Positions 1 to 58,742 of a stretch of DNA of 64,000 nt are shown piece after piece (position 1 is the first letter of the stretch; each line of letters begins with the position of its first letter). The translations under genes were made by a program, and so were the position numbers. The notes beneath the pieces are model-generated. The model ran no database searches, was not told the origin of the DNA, and saw nothing but the letters and a program-made list of their open reading frames with translations. The DNA is from Turritopsis dohrnii (Eukaryota > Cnidaria > Hydrozoa > Anthoathecata > Oceaniidae), in the NCBI GenBank assembly GCA_027922465.2, contig BQMF02000230.1, positions 558,001-622,000 of the forward strand, read 5' to 3'.

Positions 1-905
1 TCAACTTCTACCTATTTTATTTATCATTTGATGACCACTTTTTTAATTGACTAGTCAAATTTAAAATATTGTATGATTCTAAAATTTGTATACTATCAAG
101 CTGACGATAAAAAGGAAACACAGATATTTTTATTATTTCGCATGGCCAAGTAAAAGTTTTTATTATGAAGTTCAGGTACAAACAACATAAAGATTTTCAT
201 ACTGTATAGTTTTAAAAGGAGTATTTTGAAACGTCCACGGAAGAGTGTTCTCTAATGGATTTTTAAACTGACGGTGTTCCTTTTTAAGCTTGATCTCCGG
301 CAAAATTTTTCAAAGTCTCTTAACTTTTATGACGCTCTCGGGAATGTAATTAAATGAATTCGAAGTTATTACTTCTTAAGCACAGACTTTTCTTGACGCG
401 ACAAACTTTTTATTACTGAATTACTTCTTGAAGATTCTTTAGGGAATACAACTTTGATCTAAAATCTTTTTTAAAAAATCTCTAAATTGAAGCAAGACTG
501 AAGTTTTATATGAGACAACAAAGTTTAATTGTTATCGTTGTTAAAAGGTAAAATGTAAAATACCGCAACATCATTCTGCATTATATCACTTGATATACTA
601 AGTATATCACTTCACACCTTTTGATATTCCTAGTATATCATTTGATATACCAAGTATATCATTTGATATTGCTAGTATATCAATTTTTACTATGAATATC
701 AACTGATATTCCTAGTAAAGTTTGATATACTAGGTTTATCAAGTGATATACTCAGTATATCAGTTATTTCGAAATTCCCGGCAGACGAATATGTTATCGT
801 TACGATTAACATTGTCTCGTTTATTAAAATATTTCTTTCTGAAAAGCCTCCAGAAAGTCTTCCAGTCATCTGCAGAAATACTTCTGCCCGGTAGGTCATC
901 TTGTT
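1..905 (-). repeat. Diverged inverted copy of the 1.5-kb repeat seen at 54094-58629
   Basis: Read on the minus strand, this stretch matches the right-hand tandem array. Shared landmarks include the segment around a CTACCGGGCAGAAGTATT core near 870-895, the GGAAGAGTGTTCTCTAATGG segment near 239-258 (minus-strand partner near 54711-54730), and the CATGGCCAAGTAAAAG segment near 140-155. The window begins inside this copy, so its outer limit is unknown. A palindromic minisatellite interrupts it at about 586-770. The short reading frame at 699-899 resembles the start of the matching stretch in the right-hand units, but I see no recognisable protein. The element class is unknown. Confidence 0.75.
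586..770. repeat. Palindromic minisatellite of GATATAC/GTATATC units
   Basis: About ten degenerate units, each built around TTGATATnnnTAGTATATCA, follow one another. Each unit is itself close to self-complementary, so either strand could fold into a chain of small hairpins. It lies inside the 1-905 repeat copy and is absent from the right-hand copies, so it was gained here. Confidence 0.8.
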
Positions 906-965
906 TGTTTTATTTTCTGTAATAAGAATTTCTTTTGTCTATTTATCATTCTGCTTTTCTTTTTG

Positions 966-28742: not shown

Positions 28743-29897
28743 TTGCCTTATAGATTCCAGACGAATATGATTCCAATACATGAAGAATTGTTGTCGAACC
28801 TGCAAAGACATGATGGAATGCGTGTGGCTCACATCAATATTAACGGTCTACGGAAGAGGTTCGAAGAACTGAAGCTTTTGATATCTTGTGCTGATTTAGA
28901 TATAGCGGCTATTTGCGAGACACATTTATGCAGAACAATAACTGACAATGAAATAATGACATCAAATTATAACCTTTTCAGGAAAGATCGAAATAACGGA
29001 TCTACTCCTTGGGGCGGTGTTGCCATATATTTCAAAGATACCATACATGCTTATGAACATATTTCAGAATATGATATTGAAGCTGTTTGGCTTGACGCTG
29101 CAATAAAAGGCCAAAGACTACTAGTTGGAGCAGTATATCGCCCACTCCAAGATAAGACTTTCATGCATAAATTCAACCTAGCACTGAACAACATATCACA
29201 TAGAACAAACATCGTAATAATGGGAGACTTTAATATAGACCTATCAATTGCATCAACTGACACCCGTAACTACAAATCAGTTCTCTTTACTAACAAAATA
29301 ACGAACATTATAACAGAATTTACACGTATTACCGATAACTCAAAAACTCTCATTGACCATATATTGGTATCAGATAAGTCAAAGATTGTTTTATCTGTTA
29401 CCTATGACCCGTGCTTATCCGACCATAAATTAATCTTTGCAACTATCAGTCTTAAGCGATCTCGTAAACCATCAGTTATCAGAACCATCAGAAACTATAA
29501 AGATGTCGATTGGAAACAGATACAAACTGAGGTTTCCCAAACTCCGTGGTGGGTCACAACAATATTTGACGATATCAATGATACATACTGGGCTTGGCAA
29601 AAACTGTACGAAGAAATCATTTATAACCACATCAAAACTAGAAGAGTCAAAGTCAGAGCTCAAAGCCACCCATGGATGAATAGAGAAATCCGTAAGCTTA
29701 TGAATCAGAGATACAAACTACTACTAGAAGCCCAAAAAACCAATAAAGGATCACATGAATGGACAATCTACAAACGTGTTCGAAACAAATGTACAGCACT
29801 ATTCCGAAAAGCAAAGAGCCAATACTGGAAAGATAAGTTTGATAACTCTAACTCCACAAGAGAATTTTGGCACTTAGTAAAATCCTTCCAAGGTTAA
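28743..29897 (+). mobile_element. LINE fragment: intact APE-type endonuclease frame, no reverse transcriptase
   Basis: The 384-residue frame carries the ordered apurinic endonuclease motifs of CR1/Jockey-type LINEs: HININGLRKR near the start, a CETHL element, a VYRP element, GDFNIDL (catalytic Asp/Asn), a DHILVS element and SDHKLI near residue 224. A helical linker ending in FWHLVKSF follows, as before the RT of these elements. The frame then stops and the next kilobase shows no RT. The upstream 28573-28600 TTTA-repeat run might belong to another element. It is a 3'-truncated or internally deleted LINE, although the EN frame itself has no break. Confidence 0.8.
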
Positions 29898-30344: not shown

Positions 30345-30755
30345 CTAATAAAATGACTGGCAAATTCAAAATCAGCAACTTCTAATTGTGCGTTGTCGAA
30401 ATTTTTATGAATATTGTAGAACTTTCTAAGTTTGATCCAAATTTGGCCCGAATTACCCATTTCTGGTCAAATCTGACAAAATGACTGACAAATTCGTAAT
30501 CAGCACCTTTGAAATTTGAAGAACTTTCTAAATTTGGTCCAAATTTGACCTAAATTGGCCAATTTTATTCAAACCTGGCAATATCATTGTCAAATTTGAA
30601 ATCAGCACCTTTCAATTGTGATCCGTGCAAAATTTCATGAAAATTGAAAAACTTTCGAAATTTGGTTCAAATTTGACCTATATTGGCCAATTTTAGTCAA
30701 ACCTGGCAAAAACTAACTATCATTGTCAACTTCGAAATCAGCACCTTTCAAATGT
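30345..30755. repeat. Degenerate tandem repeat abutting the Polinton
   Basis: About three and a half units of 105-130 bp share AATCAGCACCTTTCAA, AAATTTGGTCCAAATTTGACC and ATTGGCCAATTTTA blocks. The Polinton interrupts the last unit. The preceding 29898-30344 has no recognisable gene. Confidence 0.75.
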
Positions 30756-31038
30756 AGAGATAATAAAATGCCGATTGCAGCGCAATCGCTGCGCAAGTGG
30801 TTCCGACTCCCTCCGCAGCGACTCGCGAAAAAAAAATCGGTAAAAGTGACAAAGTGCCCAGGTCATCAATCAAAACCACCCCACCCCTTCTGCGCATGCG
30901 TCGAAAATGAATGCTGACGTCAGCAGTTCTGATAACTCGTCGGTCACGGTTGAATTGCTCCCTAAAATCGAAGGTCCTCCTCGAAATCACTCAAGCGTGA
31001 AATCGAAGATCCTCCTCGAAACTCGTTAAAACCGAAGG

Positions 31039-31148
31039 TGAGTCAGGGAATTCCCTAAAGTGGCACGTCGGGGCTGGCCCTCCTCGTAAGTAGGGAAATC
31101 CCCACTCATAAAAAATTCATCAAATGAGTCAGGGAATTCCCTGACTCA
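31039..31148. promoter_or_regulatory. AP-1/NF-kB-like site cluster upstream of the polymerase gene
   Basis: Three AP-1-type heptamers (TGAGTCA or TGACTCA) lie at 31039-31045, 31125-31131 and 31142-31148. Three sites fitting the kB consensus GGGRNNYYCC lie at 31046-31055, 31093-31102 and 31132-31141. Positions 31124-31149 form a perfect 26-bp palindrome: an AP-1 heptamer, a GGGAATTCCC core and a second AP-1 heptamer. The cluster ends about 45 bp before the TATA-like box. Most of it is repeated in the right TIR. Binding is an inference from motif match only. Confidence 0.65.
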
Positions 31149-31193
31149 TGCGTTAGTTCTGTCCACTCGTAAAAAAATTCCAAGTTGAAAAAG

Positions 31194-31207
31194 TCTATAT
31201 AATAAAG
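31194..31207 (+). promoter_or_regulatory. TATA-like box of the polymerase gene
   Basis: TCTATATAATAAAG ends one base before the ATG-containing codon region. The same string precedes the ankyrin-type gene at the other end and, as CATATAATAAA, the starts at 35981 and 38462. The very short distance to the ATG implies a tiny or absent 5' UTR, or initiation from a site inside the box. Confidence 0.55.
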
Positions 31208-31208
31208 G

Positions 31209-34200
31209 ATGTTGAGTTATTTCAGAAACGCAGTATCTAAATTATACAACGCTGTTTCAGCGCCTGTAACGACAACTCGTGATGCACTCGCAGATCGATT
31301 GCAGAAGATTCGCGAGTCTATTACTTCTTTATATAACAAGACTAAGGAGAGACTAGGGTATGGACAGTCACCACTGATTTCAGCTGTTGAACGCCAAGCC
31401 ATGACAGAAGAGGAGGCGAGTGATGATTTTATACCTATGAAGCATAAGCATGCACTACGTAAAACTTTCCGAAGCTTTCGTATAGGTGGTATAGGAAAAG
31501 CTGATGTTGATGGATACTTCACGCTAGTGAGAGCAAATGTGAAGAAATTGATGGAAGAGCAGGTTGAGGACATGGGGTCTGCTAAAGTACAACTTTCTCT
31601 ATGGATCATGTGGAAGAAGCCTATCAAGAATTTAATTCAACTTGAAGATGATGATATAGAAGAAGATGAGGGAACTGTGGGAACAATGGGAACTGAAGAT
31701 GAATATGTAAGGATAGAAAAAGTTTTTAACAGCTTGATGATGAGAGTGTTCCAAGGTAGTGACATGAAAGAGATATTGGATGAGATGTTTGCATATATCA
31801 AAAGCCAAGTAGAGCATCCTGCATTACCACAAAGCGGCTTCACCATCGATCACATCATGCACCTGGACGTAGACTTTCACAAGCTGCAGCTGCTGAGAGG
31901 ATCTTCATACATCAAACTACCACCGTGGATAGCGTCGAAAAAGGCAATCATCAACCCTAAAAACGATGATGAAGAATGCTTCAAGTGGGCTGTAATAGCA
32001 GCACTACATCATGAAGAGATTGAAAAAGATCCGCAATGCATTTCAAAGCTACAGAAGTATGAGAATAAGTACAACTGGGATGGTTTAGAATTTCCTGTAG
32101 CAATAGACAAGATAGCAAAGTTCGAGAAGAATAATCCTAACATTGGGGTGAACGTACTATATATTGAAGAAAAGTCTACAAAGAGGAGGATCAACACCAC
32201 ACGAGAATCTAATCGTAACATAAGCGCAAAGAAGCAAGTCAATCTGTTGATGGTATGTGATGGAGAGAAAAATCACTATACAGCCATCAAGAATCTATCA
32301 AGGTTGTTGGGTCAAGAAAACACAAATCATCAACATGCACAGCACTTTTGCATCAACTGTCTAAATGGTTTTCACAATGTAGAGTCACGAGACAAGCACT
32401 ATATCTACTGCTCTGGCAATGAACAAGTTAGAGTGGAGATGCCTGGAGAGAAGGAAAAATGGTTGTATTATAACAATGGAGAGATGCAGTTTAGAGTACC
32501 TTTTGCTATCTATGCAGATTTCGAGAGTCTTTTAGTACCTATGAAGGAAGATGGGAGAGAGAAGAACACAAAAACACTATCGAAGCACATACCTTCAGGA
32601 TGGTGTACGTACAGCAAGTTTGCGTATGGAGATGTGCAAGATCCTCTAAAAGTATATAGAGGTGAAGATTGTGTAAAGAAGTTTGTTGATCATCTGGAAG
32701 ATGAAGTTAAGCGGTTGTATGCGACATTTCCAGAGCAGTCGATGATAGAACTGACGGATGTTCAGAAGCGTGATCATTGGGATGCAGAAACTTGTCACAT
32801 ATGTATGCAGCCATTTTCCGATCCTCAAAATCGCAAAGTCAGAGATCACTGTCACTATACAGGTTTATATCGAGGTGCTGCACATAACAATTGCAACCTA
32901 AGATACAAGATCCCACGTCATATCCCTATCATCTTTCACAACTTAAGTGGCTATGATGCACACCTCTTCATTAGAGAACTTGGGGAAAAGTACAACATGA
33001 AAGATATAGGATGCATCGCGGAAAACAGGGAAAAGTATATATCCTTCCATGTCAAAATAGCAATACCACTTGCTGGTGTTTTCAACTCTGACGGTGCACA
33101 AGTGTACAAGATGATCGAGCTGAGATTCATTGACAGCTGTAGATTCATGGCATCAAGTTTGGATAAATTGTCCTCTAATCTTAGTGATGAGCAGTGCAGA
33201 AATCTTCGATGGTTTTACAAGGAAGATAGCATCTTTCAGTTGATGCGCCGCAAAGGTGTATATCCATACGAGTATATGGATAGTTGGGAAAAGTTTGCTG
33301 AGAGAGAGCTACCCCCAAAAGAAGCCTTTTACAGCAAGCTGAACATGTGTGGTATAAGTGACACAGACTACGAACATGCACAACAGGTGTGGAGAACAAA
33401 AGGAGACGTGACAACACTTGGAGATTACCACGATGTGTACTTGGAAACGGACGTTCTACTGCTAGCAGATGTGTTTGAAACGTTTCGGGATACATGCTTG
33501 CATCACTACCAATTGGATCCACTCCATTTCTACACAGCACCCGGTTTGGCGTGGAAAGCAGCCTTGAAGTATAGCCGAATAGAGTTAGAGCTGCTCACAG
33601 ACATAGACATGCTGTTAATGTTCGAGAGAGGTATACGAGGAGGTATAACACAAGCTGTACATCGCTATGTAAAAGCAAACAATAAGTATATGGATGATCA
33701 ATATGATCCGAAGGAGGAATCCTCATATGTAATGTACCTTGACGCAAACAACCTTTACGGTTGGGCTATGGCATCAGACTTGCCAACACATGGATTTAGA
33801 TGGGTAAAAAATGTTGAGAAGTTCACACCTGAAGGTATTGCAAAGTTAGTTAAGAAGAATGAGTATGGCTATCTGCTGGAGGTGGATGTCGAGTATCCAA
33901 AGAGGCTACATGATGCTCATAATAGTTTACCATTTCTACCTGAGAGAATGACGCTTGCAAAGGTGGAAAAACTCGTACCAAATCTCCACAACAAGCATGA
34001 GTATGTCATAGATATAAGAGCGCTACATCAAGCGTTGACTCATGGCTTAGTTCTGAAGAAAGTCCACCGAGTCATCAGGTATCATCAGGTTGCCTGGCTC
34101 AAGCCTTACATAAACTTAAACACAAGACTGAGAAAAGAATCAAAGAACGACTTCGAAAAAGACTTTTTCAAGCTTATGAACAATAGCGTGTTTGGTAAGA

Positions 34201-34940: not shown

Positions 34941-34964
34941 GATTCATGCTGAATAGTGAGTAAT

Positions 34965-34987
34965 TCATGAGAAGTTTTTTCTCATGA
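34965..34987. terminator. Hairpin after the polymerase gene
   Basis: A perfect 9-bp stem (TCATGAGAA with its complement) encloses a 5-nt T-rich loop about 25 bp after the polymerase stop. It may mark transcript 3' end formation. The role is inferred. Confidence 0.4.
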
Positions 34988-35071
34988 TCTCATGACGCAA
35001 ATGAGGTGAAATTGTACGCTTGAGTGATTTTAAGCTATCATAAATAAGCTGAAATCATGTTTTATTAATGT

Positions 35072-35817
35072 GATGTGTAGTGTGGTGGTTACAACGTAAA
35101 ACTTGTAATCTTGAGATCGCTAGTTCGATCCCCACTCGGTCTCTCATGTCCTGGTTGAAAAACTTGCATGAGTGCGCACTTCCCCGCAGTTGCGTTGGAT
35201 ATATCGCGGTTTGGGTAGACTTCGGTCTGGGTGATTAATCACTGTCAGGTTTCACTGGTCCACAGAGACATTCAGGTTACCGTCAAATCGATCGAAATTC
35301 AACATAAACGTCAGGGCTTGAAGGTGTTAGCATGAACCTAAACTACTATCACATGTGGGTTCTCTAAAATAGAGTTTTCTAAAATTATCCGAATTTTTCC
35401 GAGAGACACCACAAGCAAACATTGAAGTGTAAATGAATGGTATAAAACTTAAGAGCGGAATAATTTGAAATTGTGGTGAACAGGCGACAGAGTCTGCCGG
35501 AAAGGGAAGGTCTAGTGGAGCGGCTAGATTGGAACTGGATGGTGCCGTCCGCTCCCGGTATTCACCACAAAATGTGCCAAAAGTTGTCGGGAAAAACTGT
35601 GACTAAATGTAATACACTCGAGCAGAACATGAACGGCCATTACGTGCGTAGTAGTCGGAGCTCGTAAGTAGTCACACACAAATAGTCTAAGATCTAGGGG
35701 TAGAGCTCAGAGCTGGTGGATTTGAGAAGCCAGGGTGGAGTGCCGGTTAGATCGAAGACAATGAATTAAAAACCCTCTAGGGTATCGCAACAACAACATC
35801 ATCATCAACAACAAAAA
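35072..35817 (+). mobile_element. SINE-like insertion with a tRNA-type head
   Basis: The head has an A-box-like GTGTGGTGGTTAC stretch (about 35079-35092) and a B-box GTTCGATCCC (35123-35132) at tRNA-like spacing. It does not fold into a convincing complete tRNA. The block continues non-coding for about 700 bp and ends in a CAA/CATC simple-repeat tail at 35788-35817. It sits in the largest gap of an otherwise compact element, which suggests a later insertion. No clear target duplication was found. It might instead be a native non-coding part of the Polinton. Confidence 0.4.
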
Positions 35818-35980
35818 CCCTAGGGGGTTCTCCTAAGGGAGTTTTGTTTTCGTTTCATGTAGCTCATCACCGCCACATGAAAGAAAAATGCATGAAGTAA
35901 TACTACTCATCTGTTTCTGCATTCAGACAGGACTTTGGATGTTTGTTTTCTGGAAGTGTCGTCATATAATAAATCTAGTC

Positions 35981-38461: not shown

Positions 38462-39052
38462 ATGTTGCGTTTTGGACAAATCGAAGTTTCACGGAATGAC
38501 TTTAACTCTAGTGCAGAACTTACCGACATTTACACTATCGACATGTCAAAGATCACTATAGCAGAACCTATCGTAGCAAACAAGAACGACCTGAGGTACT
38601 ACATCGGGTATGAGAAGGAAGCGAGCTAAAATCGTTCCTCTCTTAATCAAGACCCCAAAGAATTGTCACTCTTCAGGTGTATCGAAGGTATAACGAGACA
38701 TCCTGCCTGGAAGATGGGATTCAACGTGTCCGATGATAAAGCTTGGTGTGATGCCTACAACGCGATTGCTGATCGTGTGCAAGAGCTTATCTTCAATACC
38801 TTGACAGGTACTGTGATAAGTACTACAGGCTGGATCAACCCAAAGCTCATCTCCTGGGATGGTGACATCAAAACAAAGTTTAATGATGATTCACCACCAT
38901 TTAACCAATCCTGCAAGGCCACTGGTGTGTTGAAGATCGGAAGTGTGTACACACAGACCCATCACAACCACTACCTCCAAGTCCATTTGAAAGAGTGCAA
39001 GTACCATGAAACAGATATGCGTGAGAGCCTTCTCAGTGATGACGATGAGTAG
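38462..39052 (+). pseudogene. Conserved Polinton gene of unknown function, frame broken
   Basis: It starts after a CATATAATAAAG box like that of the polymerase. The first 55 codons run to a TAA at 38627-38629. Protein-like sequence with the character of this family (a hydrophobic VPLLIKTPKN stretch) continues in another frame over about 38620-38690, and the original frame resumes to 39052. Two compensating small indels would explain this. The C-terminus is acidic (LLSDDDE), a trait of some single-stranded-DNA-binding proteins, but that is only a suggestion. Related proteins are, to my recollection, common in cnidarian Polintons. Two separate small genes are the alternative. Confidence 0.55.
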
Positions 39053-39086
39053 AGACTTCAAAGTTAATGTTGTAACTTTGAAGAAA

Positions 39087-39401
39087 ATGGCAACACTGAA
39101 ACAACTAAGGCTGAAAGCGAAAGAAGAAGGTCTTCGAGGCTATTCTACGATGAACAAAAATGAACTTAATGAACTCTTGAGTGGTGAAATAAGGTACAAG
39201 CGGAACCAGCGCTCTATAGGAGTGCAGACAGAGTTCCCCGAGTGTCACGAATGTGCACTGAATAGACTTTTTTGTAATCTCTCGAAAAAAGCGTTTGTCA
39301 AAAGACAAATTTATACATCTCCAGCAGGTGAGGAGACTGATGTTGAAACCGGAGAGATCGTAGGCTATGAGGTTGACTGTACCAGGCATTACTTCAAGTA
39401 A
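39087..39401 (+). CDS. SAP/Rho-N-like small protein with a Cys-rich centre
   Basis: I chose the start at 39087, just before the domain, giving 104 residues. Residues 3-31 (LKQLRLKAKEEGLRGYSTMNKNEL) match the helix-extended-helix pattern of SAP or Rho-N domains, which bind DNA or RNA. A C-x2-C and a further Cys follow (CHECALNRLFC, about residues 50-60), possibly binding metal. It is the last gene of the left plus-strand run and overlaps the innexin gene tail to tail by 8 bp. A role in DNA binding or packaging is inferred. Confidence 0.65.
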   Translation: MATLKQLRLKAKEEGLRGYSTMNKNELNELLSGEIRYKRNQRSIGVQTEFPECHECALNRLFCNLSKKAFVKRQIYTSPAGEETDVETGEIVGYEVDCTRHYFK

Positions 39402-40452
39402 ATGTCTCCCACTTGACGTCCATACGTGTGCAAGTTGGAAGTTGTTCATCAGGGAAATTTGTCATCATCTGGTTGATTTCATAAAATTTTTGGATATCTT
39501 TTTCTCGAACAGCCTCATAAAGTTCCAATTGATACATAGTGAAGCCTTTCCTATTGGAACGATGGTAGTTTTGGTACATTCGCCCTAGTGTTATTAGTAC
39601 ACCAATGCAAGAAACTATAGTTCCTAACACTGCAACCAACCACACTATAATGAAGCAGTAGCCATATATGACATGTGAAGATATCTCACATGATAAAGTT
39701 AGTGTATTGGTGTATATAACCGTGAGACTACCCTTATTTGCCTCAATCGTGCACATACCCATAGTAGGAAAGAGTACATTATTACCTTTCTTCGTTATAT
39801 CTGGCACTCCTATGAGTTGTCTGCATGCCTGGAGAATCGACAGGTTCATGATGATGTACAAAATTTCCACTATAAATTGGCAAAAAATGTACACATTCTT
39901 CGTACAAGTCACAGTATCACAAAAGTACACATTATAAATCGCTGCTGCAGAGGAAGATTCTACACAGCTCTTAAATTTTTCCAATCGCTCAAAGTTCCAC
40001 TTGAACAGCATATATGGCAACTGTAATGCCATTGAACATGCTAGAATGAAGAATGGAATCCATTGGTAAGATGTGATAATAGTCTTTTTCATGGGCACAC
40101 ATGATCCTCGCGACTTACATAGCACATGACTGCCATCTCGCTGCTGGAGAATTCCAGTCATATCGAGAGTATCAGGAATTCCGTACTCGTGAGATAGTTC
40201 ATATTTTGTGAGCTCCTCATATATATATAGACCCTTCATCCAGCAAGCACTTTGTATGAATTTGTTCCCTACATCCCAACCTAACATATTGCAATTCATG
40301 CCATCTTTGTACCAACACCATGCCGTTATGAGAGTTGTCAACATGATTATCTTTGAACCCAGCAGCCTGTTAAATCTGGATGTAACTGAATCATTTCTCT
40401 TCTTAGTAAAATCTATAGCGAGAACTTGCTTGAGCGGATCTATAATATTCAT
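39394..40452 (-). CDS. Innexin (gap-junction channel protein) carried by the Polinton
   Basis: An uninterrupted 352-residue frame starts at ATG 40452 behind a GATAAA stretch (an ATG at 40473 would add 7 residues). It has the full innexin layout. A short N-terminus with DPLKQVL is followed by TM1 (about 34-48), a first extracellular loop with Cys54 and Cys70 in a CWMKGLY context, and the family signature SYQWIPF (128-134) opening TM2 (to 150). A cytoplasmic loop, TM3 (about 187-210), a second extracellular loop with Cys234 and Cys255, TM4 (about 260-290) and a short cytosolic tail complete it. Innexins form gap junctions and plasma-membrane channels in invertebrates. There are no introns. Position between the SAP-like and TFIIS-like genes, well inside both TIRs, argues that it travels with the element. 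Confidence 0.9.
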   Translation of the reverse strand: MNIIDPLKQVLAIDFTKKRNDSVTSRFNRLLGSKIIMLTTLITAWCWYKDGMNCNMLGWDVGNKFIQSACWMKGLYIYEELTKYELSHEYGIPDTLDMTGILQQRDGSHVLCKSRGSCVPMKKTIITSYQWIPFFILACSMALQLPYMLFKWNFERLEKFKSCVESSSAAAIYNVYFCDTVTCTKNVYIFCQFIVEILYIIMNLSILQACRQLIGVPDITKKGNNVLFPTMGMCTIEANKGSLTVIYTNTLTLSCEISSHVIYGYCFIIVWLVAVLGTIVSCIGVLITLGRMYQNYHRSNRKGFTMYQLELYEAVREKDIQKFYEINQMMTNFPDEQLPTCTRMDVKWETFT

Positions 40453-40565
40453 TTTATCTCTTTTCAAATGCATGACACTAAAACCACTTTACTCTGCCCG
40501 ATGTTGATACGCGGGAATTGTTCGAGAGTATGTTCGATATCGACATGTAACGTTTTGTAGCTACT

Positions 40566-40646: not shown

Positions 40647-40877
40647 ATGGAAGACTTTTCAAATCCAATATTTGACTCTGCCAAGGATAGACTCCTTAAA
40701 ATATTCAACGAAATGTCAAAGCCTAGAGCGACTGCTCCAGAACAAACATTGTATACTTGCCATCGCTGTGCGAGCAGGAACATTCTTTCAATACCAAAAC
40801 AAGTCAGGTCATGTGACGAGGGAACGTCAGTGTTCAATGAGTGTAACAACTGCCATAGCAAGTGGAGGGATGGATAA
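40647..40877 (+). CDS. TFIIS-like zinc-ribbon protein
   Basis: The 76-residue frame begins in an ATAAATG context. Cys38-x2-Cys41, RSCDE (54-58) and Cys66-x2-Cys69 followed by Trp73 reproduce the C-terminal zinc ribbon of transcription factor TFIIS. There the R-S-x-D-E acidic loop enters the RNA polymerase II active site and stimulates transcript cleavage. The N-terminal domains of cellular TFIIS are missing, as in short viral and Rpb9-like forms. The Asp-Glu pair is kept, so RNA polymerase rescue is plausible. It would help the element's transcription by host RNA polymerase II or act in another complex; both are inferences. It converges on the gene at 40939. Confidence 0.8.
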   Translation: MEDFSNPIFDSAKDRLLKIFNEMSKPRATAPEQTLYTCHRCASRNILSIPKQVRSCDEGTSVFNECNNCHSKWRDG

Positions 40878-41596: not shown

Positions 41597-42262
41597 TTAT
41601 TTGAAGACGACGAGCATATTGATAGCTTGTAAATCAACTTTCCTGCCTTGATCGTCCGTGACGTAAAAATTCAACGTTCGCGTTGAGGACCTCAATTTGT
41701 TGGTGAACATAGGACGTTCATAGTGATACGACATGATGTCGCCATACTCGTATTCTGGCTTCTGAAGTCTAAAAATGTGTACGATTTTCGTAATTGCACC
41801 GTTTAACAGAATATAGCTGTTTTCGAATTCCTCACAGTACAGCCGTATAGACTTGAACGTACAGAAGTTTGGCACCGATCTATATTCACCTTGAGTATAC
41901 TTCTTATCTAACCCTAAAAGTTCCCCTAAGTTTTCACTTATTGAGACGTAATACCCTTTTTGTACTGATAAGTGAAGCTTACCATCCTCTCTTGGATCGA
42001 GATTTGCGCATCCAAGTGATCTTGCATTTATTCTTGAACGAATACTCTTTGACGTATATAATCCAGGTGGAAAGTCTATATGCAGGGGGAACCTTGAATC
42101 GACGGGGCCTTTTTTTGATACTTGATCAATGGTAAATCTAGCGTGTTGAACTAGGTTGAGCCACCCCACGTATAACACTGCTTCTTTTATCGCAATCTCC
42201 GTGCCTTCTTTTAACTCTGTTGGTAACTTGGTTTCTCCAAGATGGGTGACATTTACATACAT
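41597..42262 (-). CDS. Minor capsid (penton-type) protein
   Basis: The 221-residue frame matches in size and pattern the single jelly-roll minor capsid protein of Polintons, which forms the vertices of the predicted icosahedral shell. Features include an N-terminal MYVNVTHLGE beta strand, alternating hydrophobic strands, PLHIDFPPGLYTS, and a terminal TLNFYVTDDQGRKVDLQAINMLVVF strand pair as seen in penton-like proteins. It is transcribed away from the 42277 gene across a 14-bp shared promoter region that resembles the one at the major capsid gene. The frame is intact. Confidence 0.8.
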   Translation of the reverse strand: MYVNVTHLGETKLPTELKEGTEIAIKEAVLYVGWLNLVQHARFTIDQVSKKGPVDSRFPLHIDFPPGLYTSKSIRSRINARSLGCANLDPREDGKLHLSVQKGYYVSISENLGELLGLDKKYTQGEYRSVPNFCTFKSIRLYCEEFENSYILLNGAITKIVHIFRLQKPEYEYGDIMSYHYERPMFTNKLRSSTRTLNFYVTDDQGRKVDLQAINMLVVFK

Positions 42263-46518: not shown

Positions 46519-47218
46519 AATAGCCAGTTAGAAATTTCTTATCTTCCTCATCATAGTACCAATCCCACACCCTATCCGGATGCATGGTAACTTCCACCAA
46601 CTCGTAATAGAGATCTTTTCCAAATCGACGCTTGTGATGATAGCGAAAAAGCTCCTCGTGAATAGCGTCATAATTTCCGAATCGACGCTTGTGATGATAG
46701 CGAAAGAGCTCCTCATGAATATCATCATAACCTAACCAACGTCGACAGAGTGCTACAATCATAAAGTGACTATTGAAAGCTGCTGCTAGCATTGCCCGGT
46801 TAAAATCTGTCGCACCCCACTCCTTACAGAGTTTAATGATCTCGATGTGAGCAAAGAAAGCTGCTACTTCCATTATCTCATCAAAATCCGTCGCGCCCCA
46901 CTCCTTACAGAGTTTAACAATTTCGATGTGACCCTCGACAGCTGCATTTTCCATTGCCTGGTCAAAATCCGTCGCACCCCACTCCTTAAGCAGTCGAACT
47001 ATCTCGATGTGACCATTTTCAGCTGCCTCTCCCATTGCCTCATTAAAATTGGTTGCACCATATTCCTTTAACAGCTTGACCTCCTCGATGTCACCATTGT
47101 AAGCTGCTAGCATCAATGCATCCTCAAAATCACTCACATTATGTGACTGTCCATACCCTAGTCTCTCCTTAGTCTTGTTATATAAAGAAGTAACAACGTT
47201 TCTGAAATAACTCAACAT
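46511..47218 (-). CDS. Ankyrin-type repeat protein with 27-residue units
   Basis: The 235-residue frame starts within the right TIR and shares its first 24 or so residues with the polymerase, apart from a 29-residue gap. Residues 31-165 hold five units of about 27 residues with consensus FxxAMxxAAxxGHIEIVxLCKEWGATD, shorter than the usual 33-residue ankyrin repeat. Similar compact repeats are, to my recollection, common in giant DNA viruses. A 19-residue direct duplication (IHEELFRYHHKRRFG twice) follows, then an acidic aromatic tail. Ankyrin-type proteins of large DNA viruses often bind host regulators, so a host-interaction role is plausible but unproven. The promoter is the TIR copy of the polymerase promoter. 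Confidence 0.8.
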   Translation of the reverse strand: MLSYFRNVVTSLYNKTKERLGYGQSHNVSDFEDALMLAAYNGDIEEVKLLKEYGATNFNEAMGEAAENGHIEIVRLLKEWGATDFDQAMENAAVEGHIEIVKLCKEWGATDFDEIMEVAAFFAHIEIIKLCKEWGATDFNRAMLAAAFNSHFMIVALCRRWLGYDDIHEELFRYHHKRRFGNYDAIHEELFRYHHKRRFGKDLYYELVEVTMHPDRVWDWYYDEEDKKFLTGYFQ

Positions 47219-48008
47219 CCTTTATTATATAGACTTTTTCAACTTGGAAATTTTTTACGAGTGGACAGAACTAACGCATGAGTCAGGGAATTCCCTGACT
47301 CATTTGATGAATTTTTTATGAGTGGGGATTTCCCTACTTTCGAGGAGGGCCAGCCCCGACGTGCCACTTTAGGAATTCCCTGACTCACCTTCGGTTTTAA
47401 CGATAGTGCTGACGTCAACACTTTTCGACGGTTTTCGACGATAGTGCTGATGTCAACAGTTTTCGACGGTTTTCGACGATAGTGCTGATGTCAACAGTTT
47501 TCGACGGTTTTCGACGATAGTGCTGATGTCAACAGTTTTCGACGGTTTTCAACGATAGTCTTGATGTCAGCAGTTTTCGACGCATGCGCAGAAGGGGTGG
47601 CACCAGTTTTCAACGGTTTTCGATGATAGTGTTGATGTCAACAGTTTTCGACGCATGCGCAGGGTTTCGTGTGTGCGCGTGTGTGTGTGCGTGTGCGTTG
47701 CGTTTGAATCGGCATTATACTATCTCTAGGAGGACCTTCGATTTTAGGCAGCAATTCAACCGTGACCGACGAGTCGATGAAACTGCTGACGTCAGCATTC
47801 ATTTGGGGGTGGTTTTGATTGATGACTTCGATGATGTGCTGACGTCAACACTTTTCGACGATAGTGCTGACGTCAACATTTTTCGACGCATGCGCAGAAG
47901 GGGTGGGCACTTTGTCATTTTTCCGATTTTTTTTTTTCGCGAGTCGCTGCGGAGGGAGTGGGAAGCACTTGGACACCGTTGTCCTACAATCCGCAATTAT
48001 CTATCTCT
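47143..48008 (-). repeat. Right terminal inverted repeat of the Polinton
   Basis: It is the reverse-complement partner of 30756-31371, extended to 866 bp by tandem repeats at 47401-47660. The AP-1/kB-type palindrome is kept at 47278-47303, and a GGGGATTTCCC site at 47324-47334. A third kB-like site (47371-47380) has one changed base. Outermost bases read TATCTCT, the complement of the left AGAGATA. Confidence 0.9.
47401..47660. repeat. CRE-like minisatellite in the right TIR
   Basis: Units of roughly 38-42 bp, CGATAGTGCTGA(C/T)GTCAACA with TTTTCGACGG, recur five or six times. Each holds TGACGTCA or the one-base variant TGATGTCA. Exact TGACGTCA octamers are at 47410-47417 in the array and at 47787-47794, 47840-47847 and 47868-47875 beyond it. 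The left TIR has a single exact octamer and no array. CREB/ATF binding is inferred from motif only. Confidence 0.75.
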
Positions 48009-50931
48009 AGAGGACTTTTACACAACTTAGCAGAATTTGTCGCTGTTTTACAAAAGCATCAACACATAGATATATTGACAGTATCCGAAACACACATATC
48101 AATAAACGATGATGAAAGATTATTCCAGATACCGAGGTACCATTTTATATCAAAACCACGTCTAAATGGCACAGGCGGAGGAGTTGGAATTTACATCTCG
48201 CAAAATATTACGTGGAAAAGAAGAGAAGACCTAGAGCCTGAATCATTGGATGTGATTTGTGTTGAAGTTATTCAGAAAAATGCCAAAAACTTTTTGATAT
48301 GTACAGCATACAGACCCCCTGAATCATCAAACTATCTACTACTAAACTTCAATGATATGTGGGGGCAATTTCTAATAAATGCAACACAAACTTTCAAAGA
48401 AATAATTATCCTTGGAGATTTAAACATTAATTACTTAGACAAAAACGCGTGTAAAGAATTAAAACCGATTATTCTTTTACAAGGCTTCCATCAAATGATT
48501 GAATCTGCTACGAGAATAACTAATGAATCTGCCACTTTGATTGATGTTATTTTGTCAACGAACATAAATACAATTGCATCAACAATAACGGCTCCCTTGA
48601 GTCTTGGTGACCATGATCTCATCGGATGCGTACGAAAAATCAATAACAGTAAAGTTAAACCAAGAACAATTAAGTGCCGCAATTATTCTCGTTACAACCA
48701 TGAACAATTAAAACAAGAACTTTTGCAAATCCCAATGGAACTTTTATACAAAATGAACGACGTGAACAGAGCGTGGGAATTCTTATGAGGCATTTTGAAT
48801 CATTGTTTCGATAAGCACGCACCAACAATCACGAAGAGAGTGAAGGGTTCCCTTTGTCCATGGCTAAATGTTGACATCAAAGCAGCAATGAATTATCGAG
48901 ATAAAACTTTGCGAAAATTCCGTAAAACCAAAGACGAAACTGACTGGAATGAATACAAACGTTGGCAAAATATGTGTACTGTGAAGATCAGACAGGCAAA
49001 AAGCAACTACCATCAAGCGCTTTTGACTGAAAATTGTCACAACCCTCGAAAGTTTTGGCGAGCCATCAAATCTATTTTCCCTGGACGAAAAACTTCTAAC
49101 AGTGTCCTAGCTGCAAGTCACTCAAACAAAGCAAATTCATTCTGTGAATTCTTTACAACTGTTGCAAAATCGTTAAAAGAAAAAACTTTCCCTTTACGTC
49201 AGTTCATTTGGAAGAAACCTATCAAGATTCAACCGAAAACGCTGTCTTCTTTCGCTTTCACTTACATTTGTTGAAAGAGAACTACGAAACCTGAAGCGAA
49301 ACAAATCAACAGGCATTGACAATTTACCACCAAATATGATTAAAGATGCAGCTAGTGTCATTGCAAAACCTCTTGCGTACGTTATCAACCTCTCCTTGAG
49401 ATCTGGCCAGGTACCAAACGACTGGAAGATAGCTCTTGTATTACCTTTGCATAAAAGGGGATGTACTAATGATTATAACAACTTTCGACCGATATCCATC
49501 CTTCCAGTGTTATCGAAAATCCTGGAAAAATCTGTCCATCATCAGTTTTTAAACAATAACTTGTTATCTCCATTTCAATTTGGTTATCGTAGCAAAAAAT
49601 CGACCGACTTAGCAACAGCTTTTTTAACTGACTCGATCAGAAGAGCAGGAGATAAAGGTTTACTTACCGAAGCTGTGTTTTTAGATCTCGCTAAAGCCTT
49701 CGACACTCTTTCACATGATAGACTTCTCGAAAAATTGAAATCTTGCGGTGTGCGTGGGTTAGCTTTGAATTGGTTTGCTGACTATCTGTTCAATCGTTCT
49801 CAAGTCGTCAAAATTGGTCAGGAGCTGTCTAACCCCTGTTCAATAGTATGTGGAGTACCGCAGGGCTCAATTCTAGGCCCTATACTATTTTTGATATACT
49901 TTAATGACTTTGAGAACCGTCTCACTCACACGAGGGTTGTACAATTTGCAGATGATACAGTAGTCTATGTGTCATCAAAAAGTATCGATGATATCGAAAG
50001 TAAGCTCAACAAAGACATGTACGCAGTCCAAACATATCTCGAGAGAAACGAATTGATCATCAATTTGAAGATAGGAAAAACCGAATGTGTATTGTTTGGT
50101 ACTGCTAAACGAATTTCTACTGTTTCCACAGATAAACGAACATTGAAGGTGTACTGCAACGAAACATTGATAAACTGTTCCTCATCTTACAAATACTTGG
50201 GTACATTGCTGGACCAGAATCTTGGACTAAGTGAAGATTTCGATCAGAAATACAAAAAAGCGTCATCTAAACTTTGTATTTTGCGAAAATTGATACAGTA
50301 CTTAACTCCAGATGCTGCGAAGTTATTGTATTCAAGTGTCATTCTCTCAGGACTCAGATTCAATGGAATTGTTCACTTAAACTTGAATTCAACACAGCAG
50401 ACAAAATTGAAGTCACTTGAACGACGAGCTGATTATATATTACACACAAAAACTGTGCCAATTAAAAATGAACTTGACAAGCAAGCTGTGCTAGTAGTAC
50501 GCAAATGCTTAGATAAGAACATTTGCACTATGTTCCAAGACTACTTTTCTATAAACCAGCACAGAATCAACACTAGAAATCAAAATGTTCTAGTCAAAGT
50601 ACCACAAGTGAAACTAGAATTTGCTAAAAATTCTTTTTATTTCATGGGGGCCAAGATTTACAACAGCTTACCACTGGATATTAGGACATGCACAAACTTT
50701 AAGAACAAGGTACAACAGTTCTTCATCTATTTACTGAAGATTATGTGTTTACTTTTAATTTTATGCTTGTTTCATTTTATTTGTAACTATATTGTTTTGT
50801 TTTTTATTTATTCTATGATCTTGTATATTCAATTGTAACCATATAATAAAGGACACATATTGATAGCAGATTTTATCTGAAATGTAAATATCCTTTTAAA
50901 ATATTCAAATACAATACAATACAATACAAGA
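48009..50931 (+). mobile_element. 5'-truncated CR1/Jockey-like LINE
   Basis: Coding begins abruptly in the endonuclease domain at the Polinton end: SETHI, then AYRPPESS, GDLNINYLD and GDHDLIG. One stop at 48786-48788 and a frame change near 49255 break the frame. The reverse transcriptase then runs open from about 49336 to 50838, with FRPISILP, FGYRSKKST, VFLDLAKAFDTL, GVPQGSILGP and the catalytic FADD near 49950, and a C-terminal tail. A tandem AATAC tail ends the copy at about 50910-50931. ORF1 and the EN N-terminus are missing. It cannot move by itself. Confidence 0.9.
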
Positions 50932-52364: not shown

Positions 52365-54093
52365 TTGAATGTATAGCTTGCTGTGTGTACAAATTGGAAT
52401 GCTTGAGCGCGGGGGCATTTTTAGCTAAAGCTACATGCTAGTTATAATAATTGCAAAACGTGCATCCCACTTTTATTTTAGAGAGTGATACCATTTCTTT
52501 TTTTAACGGTCTTCTTATTTCGAGAGACACTTTTTACGATTATTATATGGGGAAACCCCAGTGATGATTGTTTCATTGGCTAATAAAGGAAAACTTATAA
52601 AATGCGCTGTTTTGATGTGCAGGCAAATTCCAAAAAATTCGATCGTTTTAATAACGATTTCTCATTATCTATCTCGTGTTTATATATAAAAAAAGAAATC
52701 CCGGAACAAAGAATATCCGGTCCCTCTTATTTTGTCAAACCAGGATCACGCTTGAAGAGGGACTTTTCATCATATTAACACACTGTCCCGGGACGTTTTA
52801 AAAAAATGTTAACGCTGATTTCCGTCTTTTCCCGGCACAGCCCCCGCTAATTATTTCTCATGTAAAGACGGGGTGAAGTCATGTCGTTTTTCGTCCCGTC
52901 CCAGCAAACTTCCTGTCCTGCTTCCCATAAAAACAGCCCTTTAGAAGAGATCACGCGTATTTAATTGCATGAGACGTAACGCCTTCGAAAAAGATCAATT
53001 GCTTAAACAAAAGATGTTTATTTAAAAAATATTGAATGGAGAACACAAAAAGAAAAAAAATTTTGTTGGAAAAATCGTTTCTAAATTTAAATTTTTCTCT
53101 CCAGAAATTCAATCTATGATAAAAATTACATAAGAAAGCTAAAAATCTTGTTTTGGTATTTTTTGACCAAATAGGTTAGAAACTATAATTAATTAGTGTG
53201 AACAGGATATACATGTATTCGGTTAGATTTTTTTACTTGACTTAGAAAACTCACAAAACCTTTGAAATAATAATTATTATTGTTATAATAGTCCATTGTG
53301 CTTCTAACTGTACATTGATATTACATCTGCTTAGCTCTTAACTGTACGTATACGAGTCTTTACTTTTTTCTTGGCATGTTTCATTCGTAAGTTGTTTCTG
53401 ATTTTACTGCATCGCCAAATAATGTAGAACTGATCAAACAAAAAACTTCTTTTTAAGTTATTTTGACTTTTGTTGATTTAAGTTTGTTTATGATTGTTTA
53501 AATCACAAAGTAAGAAGATGTTATTGGCTTTCAGTGAACAACTTCATGTTTCATAATTCATATAATAATTTCTTATCCTAACAAAGAGGAAATAAACTTT
53601 CCAAATGAAGTTACTTTTAGAGGTTGCTTTTAGCTTGTGTAACATGACAACAAGCGAGTTTTTACGTTTAGATTTATGAAACTATATCATGGCTTTTATC
53701 AAGTTGTTTTTTGTTGCTGCTCAAGTGCATTTACGTAAGATTTTATTTACTCGAATTTATCATTTTCAGATTATATTTACATCAAGCACACACGCAAGCA
53801 AAGAGCTCTTAACTGTAGGTCTAATAAGCTCTTTTCCATATCTGTTCCGGTTCGGTAAAATACGCAATTCATATTTCCTAAAAACATGCAAACGTTTATT
53901 ATGAACAATTTCAAATTTCTAGCGGGAAAAAGCAACACTTTAGCTGAATTAAAGTCTTGTTTATGTTTGCTTTAGCAAAAAAAGTAAAGCAGTTTTGAGT
54001 ATCACTGTCTGAAGGAAAAAACATGAAATCGTTGGAGGACTTGGGAGCGCAGCGTGTTCGTGAGTTAAGAAGAATAGACAATAATATATTTTA

Positions 54094-57000
54094 ACAAGAT
54101 GCCCTACCGGGCAGAAGTATTCCTGCGGATGACTGAAAGACTTTCTGGAGCCTTTTCAGAAAGAAATGAGTGTTAGTTCACGCTTTAAAACCATATGCAT
54201 AATGCGGAATGATGTTTGCAGTATTTTACATTTTACCTTTTAGCTACGATAACTATTAAACTTTGTTGTTTCATATAAAACTTCAGTCTTGCATCAATTT
54301 AGAGATTTTTTTAAAAAGATTTCTATTCGAAGTTGTACTCCCTAAAGCATTTTCAAGAAGCAATTAAGTAATTAAAAGATTATCGTGTTAAGAATAATCT
54401 GTGCTTTAAAAGGTGAATGTGAAAGAAGTAATATTTGTTATTTCATATAAACTGCACTGTTTTGCATCATTTAGAGATTTTTTCAAAAAGTTTTTTATTC
54501 ATAGTTATATTCCCTAAAGCATCTTCAAAAAGTAATTAAGTAACGAAAACTTTGTCACATTAAGTTTTGAATGGAAAATCTGTGGCGTAAATAGTAATAA
54601 CTTTGAATTCATTTAATTACATTCCCGAGAGCATCATAAAAGTTGAGAGACTTTGAAAAATTTTGCCGGAGATCAAGCTTAAAAAGGAACACCGTTAGTT
54701 TAAAAATCCATTAGAGAACACTCTTCCGTGGACGTTTCAAAATACTACTTTTAAAACTATACAGTATGAAAATCTTTATGTTGTTTGTACCTGAACTTCA
54801 TAATAAAAACTTTTACTTGGCCATGCGAAATAATAAAAATATCTGTGTTTCCTCTTTATCGTCAGCTTGATAGTATACAAATTTTAGAATCATACAATAT
54901 TTTAAATTCGACTAGTCAATTAAAAAAGTGGTCATCTATTGATTAATAAAATGGGTATAAGCTGATGAGGAAGATAAGCTGCGCTTCAAGATTCCAGAGC
55001 TTTATAAAAACAGGGTAGCTTATCTAGGAACATGAATTAAAAAATTGTATTACATTTAGAAAGACTAATAGAAACCTTACGCATTAAATCGATATAAACA
55101 TACCCTATTGGTAGTCGTTCATATCTGTTTTGAAGCATCAAGAACTGCTTATTTATCAAGAATGTCTACTAAGAATATTAGTTTCACGTAGATTATCAGT
55201 TTGGATCATAAATGTTCTTGATTCTTTTAAGTTTTACAGCCGTACTACAAACTCTTCTATATCCATATATTCAACAAAGAAACTTTCACAGATCTACGCA
55301 TGCTTCTTCGCTTCCATTTTTAAAACAACTACGGAAAACGTAAGAACGTTGCATAAGACTCACATGAAACAACATTTCTACCTTGGCATCTGCGATTTAG
55401 TCATATGTTAATTATTCCTTTCACTAGAGCTTATATTTTACACTTTTAGAGTCTTTTCAAGCAAAGTACTTGTATACAATGAATATAGTGTGAGTTAAGA
55501 CTGTTAAATCATAAAAAGAATGCAAGTTGGGAACATTAATGATTTGAGTGGCTATTTCCCATCGACAAAAATTGGTCTAGGTTTGGACAGTGAAAAAAAA
55601 ACAAAACAAAACAAGATGCCCTACCGGGCAGAAGTATTCCTGCTGATGACTGTAAGACTTTCTGGAGCCTTTTCAGAAAGAAATGAGTGTTAGTTCACGC
55701 TTTAAAACCATATGCATAATGCGGAATGATGTTTGCAGTATTTTACGTTTTACGTTTTAGCTACGATAACTATTAAACTTTGTTGTTTCATATAAAACTT
55801 CAGTCTTGCATCAATTTAGAGATTTTTTTAAAAAAGATTTCCATTCGAAGTTGTACTCCCTAAAGCATCTTCAAGAAGCAATTAACTAATTAAAAGATTA
55901 TCGTGTTAAGAATAATCTGTGCTTTAAAAGGTGAATGTGAAAGAAGTAATATTTGTTATTTCATATAAACTGCACTGTTTTGCATCATTTAGAGATTTTT
56001 TCAAAAAGTTTTTTATTCATAGTTATATTCCCTAAAGCATCTTTAAAAAGTAATTAAGTAATGAAAACTTTGTCACATTAAGTTTTGAAGGGAAAATCTG
56101 TGGCGTAAGTAGTAATAACTTCGAATTCATTTAATTACATTCCCGAGAGCATCATAAACGTTAAGAGACTTTGAAAAATTTTGCCGGAGATCAAGCTTAA
56201 AATGGAACACCGTCAGTTTAAAAATCCATTAGAGAACACTCTTCCGTGGACGTTTCAAAATACTCCTTTTAAAACTATACAGTATGAAAATCTTTATGTT
56301 GTTTGTACCTGAACTTCATAATAAAAAGTTTTACTTGGCCTTGCGAAATAATAAAAATATCTGTGTTTCCTTTTTATCGTCAGCTTGATAGTATACAAAT
56401 TTTAGAATCATACAATATTTTAAATTCGACTAGTCAATTAAAAAAGTGGTCATCTATTGATTAATAAAATGGGTATAAGCTGATGAGGAAGATAAGCTGC
56501 GCTTCAAGATTCCAGAGCTTTATAAAAACAGGGTAGCTTATCTAGGAACATGAATTAAAAAATTGTATTACATTTAGAAAGACTAATAGAAACCTTACGC
56601 ATTAAATCGATATAAACATACCCTATTGGTAGTCGTTCATATCTGTTTTGAAGCATCAAGAACTGCTTATTTATCAAGAATGTCTACTAAGAATATTAGT
56701 TTCACGTAGATTATCAGTTTGGATCATAAATGTTCTTGATTCTTTTAAGTTTTACAGCCGTACTACAAACTCTTCTATATCCATATATTCAACAAAGAAA
56801 CTTTCACAGATCTACGCATGCTTCTTCGCTTCCATTTTTAAAACAACTACGGAAAACGTAAGAACGTTGCATAAGACTCACATGAAACAACATTTCTACC
56901 TTGGCATCTGCGATTTAGTCATATGTTAATTATTCCTTTCACTAGAGCTTATATTTTACACTTTTAGAGTCTTTTCAAGCAAAGTACTTGTATACAATGA

Positions 57001-58629
57001 ATATAGTGTGAGTTAAGACTGTTAAATCATAAAAAGAATGCAAGTTGGGAACATTAATGATTTGAGTGGCTATTTCCCATCGACAAAAATTGGTCTAGGT
57101 TTGGACAGTGAAAAAAAAACAAAACAAAACAAGATGCCCTACCGGGCAGAAGTATTCCTGCTGATGACTGTAAGACTTTCTGGAGCCTTTTCAGAAAGAA
57201 ATGAGTGTTAGTTCACGCTTTAAAACCATATGCATAATGCGGAATGATGTTTGCAGTATTTTACGTTTTACGTTTTAGCTACGATAACTATTAAACTTTG
57301 TTGTTTCATATAAAACTTCAGTCTTGCATCAATTTAGAGATTTTTTTAAAAAAGATTTCCATTCGAAGTTGTACTCCCTAAAGCATCTTCAAGAAGCAAT
57401 TAACTAATTAAAAGATTATCGTGTTAAGAATAATCTGTGCTTTAAAAGGTGAATGTGAAAGAAGTAATATTTGTTATTTCATATAAACTGCACTGTTTTG
57501 CATCATTTAGAGATTTTTTCAAAAAGTTTTTTATTCATAGTTATATTCCCTAAAGCATCTTTAAAAAGTAATTAAGTAATGAAAACTTTGTCACATTAAG
57601 TTTTGAAGGGAAAATCTGTGGCGTAAGTAGTAATAACTTCGAATTCATTTAATTACATTCCCGAGAGCATCATAAACGTTAAGAGACTTTGAAAAATTTT
57701 GCCGGAGATCAAGCTTAAAATGGAACACCGTCAGTTTAAAAATCCATTAGAGAACACTCTTCCGTGGACGTTTCAAAATACTCCTTTTAAAACTATACAG
57801 TATGAAAATCTTTATGTTGTTTGTACCTGAACTTCATAATAAAAAGTTTTACTTGGCCTTGCGAAATAATAAAAATATCTGTGTTTCCTTTTTATCGTCA
57901 GCTTGATAGTATACAAATTTTAGAATCATACAATATTTTAAATTCGACTAGTCAATTAAAAAAGTGGTCATCTATTGATTAATAAAATGGGTATAAGCTG
58001 ATGAGGAAGATAAGCTGTGCTTCAAGATTCCAGAGCTTTATAAAAACAGGGTAGCTTATCTAGGAATATGAATTAAAAAATTGTATTACATTTAGAAAGA
58101 TTAATAGAAACCTTACGCATTAAATCGATATAAACATACCCTATTGGTAGTCGTTCATATCTGTTTTGAAGCATCAAAAACTGCTTATTTATCAAGAATG
58201 ACTACTAAGAATATTAGTTTCACGTAGATTATCACCTTGGATCATAACTGTTCTTGATTCTTTTAAGTTTTACAGCCGTACTACAACCTCTTCTATATCC
58301 ATATATTCAACAAAGAAACTTTCACAGATCTACGCATGCTTCTTCGCTTCCATTTTTAAAACAACTACGGAAAACGTTAGAACGTTGCATAAGACTCACA
58401 TGAAACAACATTTCTACCTGGCATCTGCGATTTAGCCATATGTTAATTATTCCTTTCACTAGAGCTTATATTTTACACTTTTAGAGTCTTTTCAAGCAAA
58501 GTACTTGTATACAATGAATATAGTGTGAGTTTACACTGTTAAATCATGAAAAGAATGTAAGTTGGGAACATTAATGATTTGAGTGGCTATTTCCCATCGA
58601 CAAAAATTGGTCTAGGTTTGGACAGTGAA
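54094..58629 (+). repeat. Three-unit tandem array, period 1518 bp
   Basis: Units begin near 54094, 55612 and 57130, each just before the CCCTACCGGGCAGAAG landmark. The middle unit matches unit 3 in its first half and unit 1 in its second half. The switch falls between 56373 and 56499. A 93-codon frame is identical at 55130 and 56648 and absent as such from unit 3, so it is probably not a gene. A diverged inverted copy forms 1-905. The element class is unknown. Confidence 0.9.
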
Positions 58630-58742
58630 AAAAAAAAAAAAAAAAAAAAAAAACACGAACGGTTTCAAAGTATTCCTTGCTTACGCAGGAGTACAAAAAA
58701 CACGAACGGTTTCAAAGTATTCCTTGCTTACGCAGGAATACA
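58629..58742 (+). repeat. A-run and two 44-bp direct repeats after the array
   Basis: A run of about 24 A is followed by two nearly identical copies of a unit with ACACGAACGGTTTCAAAGTA and CTTGCTTACGCAGGA. Confidence 0.8.

Follow-up and report, generated by a model that had tools for sequence, protein, structure and literature searches.

A very divergent innexin-family gene carried by a Polinton in the hydrozoan Turritopsis dohrnii

Virus-borne innexins and the closest described elements

Innexins, from which invertebrates make the channels that connect their cells, are already known in ichnoviruses and in a nimavirus. The vinnexins of ichnoviruses, for example those of Campoletis sonorensis ichnovirus, are described as intronless genes that form multigene families on polydnavirus circles and are strongly similar to insect innexins (PMC7016691). 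They are reported to form gap junctions in oocytes, to depolarise cells and to disturb encapsulation by haemocytes (PMC8402728). The endogenous nimavirus Nimav-1_LVa of Penaeus vannamei, a virus of 280 kb, is described as carrying an innexin, g155, with four exons, which its authors matched to pfam00876 and proposed to have been recruited from the host (PMC7016691). Here we describe an innexin-family frame inside a Polinton, located in a window of 64,000 nucleotides (the whole stretch of DNA that was analysed) from the hydrozoan Turritopsis dohrnii. Like the vinnexins, it is an intronless innexin gene in a virus-like DNA element of an invertebrate; unlike them, it is a single and far more divergent gene, the vinnexins being compared here by their description and not by their sequence. 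With g155 it shares the setting of an integrated invertebrate DNA virus, but it is intronless and, in contrast to g155, is missed by Pfam when the full-length protein is scanned.

An earlier note on this DNA, made from the letters alone, had named polydnavirus innexins as a precedent and knew of no description of an innexin in a Polinton. Both statements hold. The ichnovirus vinnexins are such a precedent (PMC8402728), and nimavirus g155 is a second one, which was missing from that note. Full-text searches of the open-licence literature found no paper that combines innexin with Polinton or with adintovirus, and none that combines innexin, virus, horizontal gene transfer and dsDNA virus. Broader literature searches had no Polinton innexin among the matches listed, as judged by title and term counts, and the word innexin is absent from the main texts of PMC11071296 and PMC11071308, on the wider virus group. 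A report that these searches did not reach may exist. As to the elements themselves, Adintoviridae are defined in PMC11071296 by a PolB with an OTU-like N-terminal domain and by a hexon that is recognisable by BLASTp against reference sequences.

The Polinton and its genes

The element that carries the gene is a Polinton of about 17.3 kb, and its features are collected in Table 1 together with the segments of the predicted innexin-family protein. The family B polymerase, the rve integrase, the A32-type ATPase and the terminal inverted repeats (TIRs) liken it to Polinton/Maverick elements and adintoviruses, whereas it departs from them in that a protease was not recognised and a target-site duplication was not found in this copy. 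Specifically, an adenovirus-type protease had no Pfam match among the element frames scanned. A 6-bp target-site duplication is a feature of Polinton/Maverick elements; none is present at the ends of the element as placed, and these ends may be misplaced or eroded.

Table 1. Features of the Polinton (positions in the window) and segments of the predicted innexin-family protein (residues)
Feature	Coordinates	Strand	Remarks
Left TIR	30755..31371	+	Outer end placed by alignment
Family B (Polinton-type) DNA polymerase (PolB), 1243 aa	31209..34940	+	PF03175, E 4.3e-17, in-frame fragment
Retroviral-type (rve) integrase, 326 aa	37435..38415	+	PF00665, E 3e-7, 31.1 bits (cutoff 32.6)
SAP/Rho_N-like gene	39006..39401	+	Rho_N, E 3.2e-4, 21.0 bits, below cutoff (24.9); phrog_2724, 3.2e-6
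Innexin-family gene, 352 aa + stop	39394..40452	-	Intronless, intact frame; PF00876 match for residues 20-300
TFIIS-type zinc-ribbon gene	40647..40877	+	PF01096, E 2.4e-10
Candidate minor capsid (penton-like) protein (mCP), 221 aa	41597..42262	-	No Pfam match
Candidate major capsid protein (MCP), 418 aa	44633..45889	+	Precedes ATPase; weak Capsid_N, E 0.071, below cutoff
A32-type packaging ATPase, 201 aa	45895..46500	+	PF04665 (Pox_A32), E 9.5e-10, above cutoff
Ankyrin-repeat protein, 235 aa	46511..47218	-	PF12796, E 8.5e-20; start inside right TIR
Right TIR	47143..48009	-	Enlarged by 38-bp tandem repeats
N-terminus	residues 1-31		
TM1	residues 32-48		Placement by alignment only
Loop 1	residues 49-125		
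TM2	residues 126-150		
Intracellular loop	residues 151-184		34 aa, short as placed
TM3	residues 185-211		
Loop 2	residues 212-258		
TM4	residues 259-292		
Tail	residues 293-352		60 aa, short as placed

In their best stretch the two TIRs are identical in 205 of 208 columns, so the insertion looks fairly young. The right TIR contains about seven copies of the 38-bp tandem repeat (47392-47653), which the left TIR lacks. Since the genes for PolB and for the ankyrin-repeat protein both start inside the TIRs (31209-31371 and 47143-47218, respectively), their products have the first residues MLSYFRN in common. Residues 525-564 of PolB form a segment similar to recombination endonuclease VII (PF02945, E 8.7e-6; phrog_423, E 1.9e-5), and the stretch of roughly 950 bp that separates PolB from the following gene (34941-35887) is without a long frame on the plus strand. 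The integrase also matches transposase PHROGs, from 4.3e-7. Judging by its sequence, the TFIIS zinc-ribbon gene suggests that the element touches transcription elongation. The candidate MCP found no match among PDB sequences, and the frame at 41597..42262 is called a candidate minor, penton-like capsid protein from a general resemblance only. The G+C content is about 0.38-0.46 per kb in most of the element interior (31-48 kb) and about 0.25-0.40 in most of the window.

Pieces of non-LTR retrotransposons lie near both ends of the element, at 28743-29897 and 47958-50838 (endonuclease, E 2.4e-12; reverse transcriptase, E 7.8e-33), and the frame that begins at 47958, within the right TIR, extends into the right-hand piece. 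Farther out, the left flank has a match to rolling stone at 6597-7409 (E 1.7e-14) and multicopper oxidase exons at 9585-10957 (E 6.2e-30 and 5.1e-22). Together with the retrotransposon pieces, such host-type genes are a sign of an animal genome. On the other side of the element, a unit of 1518 bp is present in three tandem copies at 54093-58662, and inverted relatives of parts of it are found at the left margin of the window (1-916).

The innexin-family frame and its protein

The frame is read from 40452 down to 39394, the plus strand in the same register being full of stops, and an alternative in-frame ATG at 40473 would give a protein of 359 aa. As the earlier note had claimed, the 352 residues are encoded by a single open frame without introns, and SYQWIPF is found at residues 128-134. 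The stop-free stretch around the frame comprises 364 codons (39397-40488), whereas 200 order-1 simulations of the interior of the element produced none longer than 227; the frame is therefore not a product of chance, and we rejected that explanation. When scored with the codon frequencies of the element, it reaches 0.044, against values from -0.023 to -0.053 for the five remaining frames of this DNA; the known element genes score higher (for example MCP 0.105, ATPase 0.114). Codon usage is without power to tell the element from a retrotransposon here, as that of the innexin-family frame is equally near to the element (r 0.55) and to the flanking retrotransposons (r 0.54). The intronless open frame is confirmed.

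Residues 20-300 of the predicted protein match PF00876, the Pfam innexin family, over positions 13-281 of the 333 in the profile, with an E value of 4.4e-9 and 36.4 bits (the curated cutoff is 25 bits). The profile was matched by five of the six in-frame fragments that we chose, ordered correctly along it; besides residues 20-300 these were 20-170 (E 5.2e-8), 1-160 (2.4e-7), 100-170 (0.0027) and 220-295 (0.0041), and residues 180-300 were left unmatched. None of five controls, namely residues 20-300 reversed and four block-shuffled versions of them, gave an innexin match in Pfam, and INX-6, the positive control for the library, matched the innexin family at 8.9e-81. A profile HMM made from two innexins placed the frame first among 528 frames and reversed decoys, at E 3.5e-4, and the runner-up was a decoy at 0.028. 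With hhalign the protein obtained E 2.4e-4 and a probability of 43%, whereas a host multi-helix protein and another frame of the element had E values of 0.46 and 0.59, respectively. Local alignment scores of 60 with INX-6 and 59 with Inx2 (taking the Inx2 reference sequence to be correct) exceed those of all 500 shuffles, the best of which reached 56 and 54, and the global score with Inx2 likewise exceeds all 500.

Other searches came out negative. The full-length protein has no innexin match in Pfam, even at E<=10, nor in NCBIfam, PHROGs or PDB sequences, and phmmer against PDB sequences found no innexin either with the whole protein or with residues 20-300. With INX-6 alone as the query, phmmer does not have the frame among the nine matches listed and tblastn recovers it only at E 1.4, while the global score with INX-6, 30, lies under the best of 500 shuffles (32). 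Several of these results would favor an unrelated membrane protein with four helices, in which YQW had arisen by chance. Set against them are the clean controls of the PF00876 match, the separate N- and C-terminal fragments that find their proper places on the profile, and the scores above all shuffles, local for both innexins and global for Inx2, and we consider an unrelated protein extremely improbable. Moreover, the element polymerase shows the same pattern, with no polymerase match at full length and 4.3e-17 for a fragment, so the full-length miss in Pfam looks like the work of a speed filter in HMMER. On sequence grounds, the gene is best classified as a very divergent member of the innexin family. 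Its identity to INX-6 and Inx2 is about 23-24% over the alignment. A phmmer search with INX-6 finds pannexins of vertebrates (best E 1.7e-6), while one with our protein misses INX-6; by this measure, INX-6 is closer to the pannexins than to our protein.

The borders of the protein segments were placed from the alignment and from hydropathy, with a Kyte-Doolittle mean above 1.4 over 19 residues as the threshold for a helix. TM2, TM3 and TM4 exceed this threshold and TM1 does not; thus, of the four hydrophobic helices announced in the earlier note, three are borne out by hydropathy and the first is placed by the alignment. The same note counted two cysteines in each extracellular loop, which is correct for loop 2 (234 and 255) but not for loop 1, which has four (54, 70, 112 and 118); one pair per loop aligns with those of innexins. 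When the protein is aligned with INX-6 and Inx2, all three sequences agree at C54, C70, C234, C255, Y129-Q130-W131, P146 and F228-P229, and D50 and W271 are also kept, among others. The YQW signature is a mark of the innexin family and is present in both reference innexins. P146 is the proline of TM2, and a proline in this helix is described as a feature of the family (PMC5412853). With cellular innexins and pannexins, then, the protein has in common the profile match, the loop cysteines, YQW and the TM2 proline, and what sets it apart from cellular innexins is its low identity to INX-6 and Inx2, the four cysteines of loop 1 and the short intracellular loop and tail.

Neither extracellular loop, as placed, contains an N-glycosylation sequon (N-X-S/T). 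Glycosylation would thus not block docking, and docking would be possible. According to a survey of innexins, proteins with more than two cysteines in loop 1 occur in cnidarians, ctenophores, lancelets and tunicates, and all chordate innexins have a site for glycosylation in their loops (PMC8769644). Lacking N-X-S/T in its loops, the protein does not look chordate, and from the four cysteines of loop 1 together with the sequon-free loops we would guess at a cnidarian-like donor. Two AlphaFold runs without an alignment gave mean pLDDT values of 43.2 and 44.0, which makes the models unusable; Foldseek with the first of them had no match at E<=0.001, and INX-6, which took ranks 4 and 5 at E about 3, was not counted.

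Origin and possible role of the gene

The frame lies between the TIRs, with the polymerase and the integrase on one side and the ATPase on the other, and we accordingly rejected the idea that it belongs to host flank. In this the earlier note was right: the gene sits in the middle of the element, between a convergent element gene and a TFIIS-like gene, and is cargo. The frame and the SAP/Rho_N-like gene share 8 bp at their 3′ ends, where the innexin stop (39394-39396) falls in the last codons of its neighbor (stop at 39399-39401), and there is no sign of a poly-A scar at this tail-to-tail junction. Toward the other side, the frame and the TFIIS gene are divergent, with start codons 194 bp apart. 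In view of the 8-bp overlap, the missing poly-A tail and the extreme divergence, we judged a recent retrocopy of a host gene unlikely. That the frame is open and has kept the key residues of the family at such divergence implies that selection has acted through most of the history of the gene, be it in the element or, before capture, in a fast-evolving paralogue of the host.

The gene could also be a chance host cDNA which the lineage, or only this copy, carries along without benefit to the element. The innexin-bearing element is known here from a single copy and, given the similarity of its TIRs, is young enough for an intact frame alone to prove little; a divergent host paralogue that was captured recently would fit these observations as well. 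Speaking against a passive passenger are a frame that has stayed open and kept its key residues despite extreme divergence, the tail-to-tail overlap, the 194 bp to the next start codon and the missing poly-A scar, and we hold passive capture to be unlikely. As for further copies, no innexin relative was found in a viral contig collection by profile scans, including those with the two-innexin and three-sequence alignments, nor in one scan of a genome contig collection, and phage records had no match to the protein. The viral collection yielded no relative of the polymerase, capsid, mCP or integrase of the element either, so the innexin miss there says nothing about animal Polintons. It did yield one weak relative of the ATPase, two frames of which (E 0.65 and 0.89) are among the best eleven of the two-innexin profile scan, where none stands out.

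The reading that we favor, and consider reasonably probable, is that a Polinton captured an animal innexin long ago and has kept it as an accessory gene which alters the coupling or the hemichannels of host cells; its functional part is drawn from analogy with the vinnexins. The Polinton would have taken up the innexin in the form of a spliced mRNA or cDNA. The protein would fold as a four-helix innexin subunit and oligomerise, alone or mixed with host innexins, and once in the membrane of a cell with an active element it would change hemichannel or gap-junction activity. As a result, the coupling of such a cell, be it electrical, metabolic or by alarm signals, may change, as with the vinnexins of ichnoviruses.

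The earlier note had also proposed that the element itself could spread through coupled cells. Innexin channels are described as passing ions and small metabolites (PMC5412853), so capsids or genomes should be unable to pass, and we do not regard this part of the proposal as a serious option. What may be taken seriously, by the same analogy, is the spreading or blocking of small signals between cells. In its boldest form, which we put forward tentatively and hold to be fairly unlikely, a lineage of Polintons would have its own gap-junction subunit, which docks with the host innexins of adjacent cells and determines which of the small messengers, be it calcium, ATP, cyclic dinucleotides or other alarm signals, can leave the infected cell. 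If that were true, an integrated virus-like element would control signalling at the level of the tissue.

The protein may, on the other hand, form no useful channel of its own and act as a dominant-negative partner, mixing into the oligomers of host innexins and closing or mistargeting them, so that the infected cell is cut off from its neighbors. Three observations would suit such a partner: heteromeric and heterotypic channels are described as common among innexins (PMC5412853), the intracellular loop and the tail are short, with 34 and 60 aa as placed, and several residues of loop 2 that INX-6 and Inx2 have in common are changed. The retained docking cysteines and the sequon-free loops are instead those of a docking-competent channel, and we find a dominant-negative role doubtful. 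Still less probable, in our opinion, is a hemichannel that serves as a viroporin, which would make the producing cell leaky to ions or ATP late in the cycle and aid particle release, without acting between cells. Vinnexins are reported to depolarise the cells that express them (PMC8402728), and with a packaging ATPase and candidate capsid genes in the element particles are plausible; the loop cysteines, though, with their part in docking and in the structure of the loops, would not need to be conserved in a general viroporin.

If the favored reading is true, innexins would have been captured by three or more kinds of DNA virus, namely ichnoviruses, a nimavirus and a Polinton, and cell coupling would be a recurring target of the viruses of invertebrates. 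Since a full-length Pfam scan misses so divergent a gene, others may be hidden in Polintons that are already published. Polintons, which are often seen as transposons with capsid genes, would gain a gene for direct interaction with the host.
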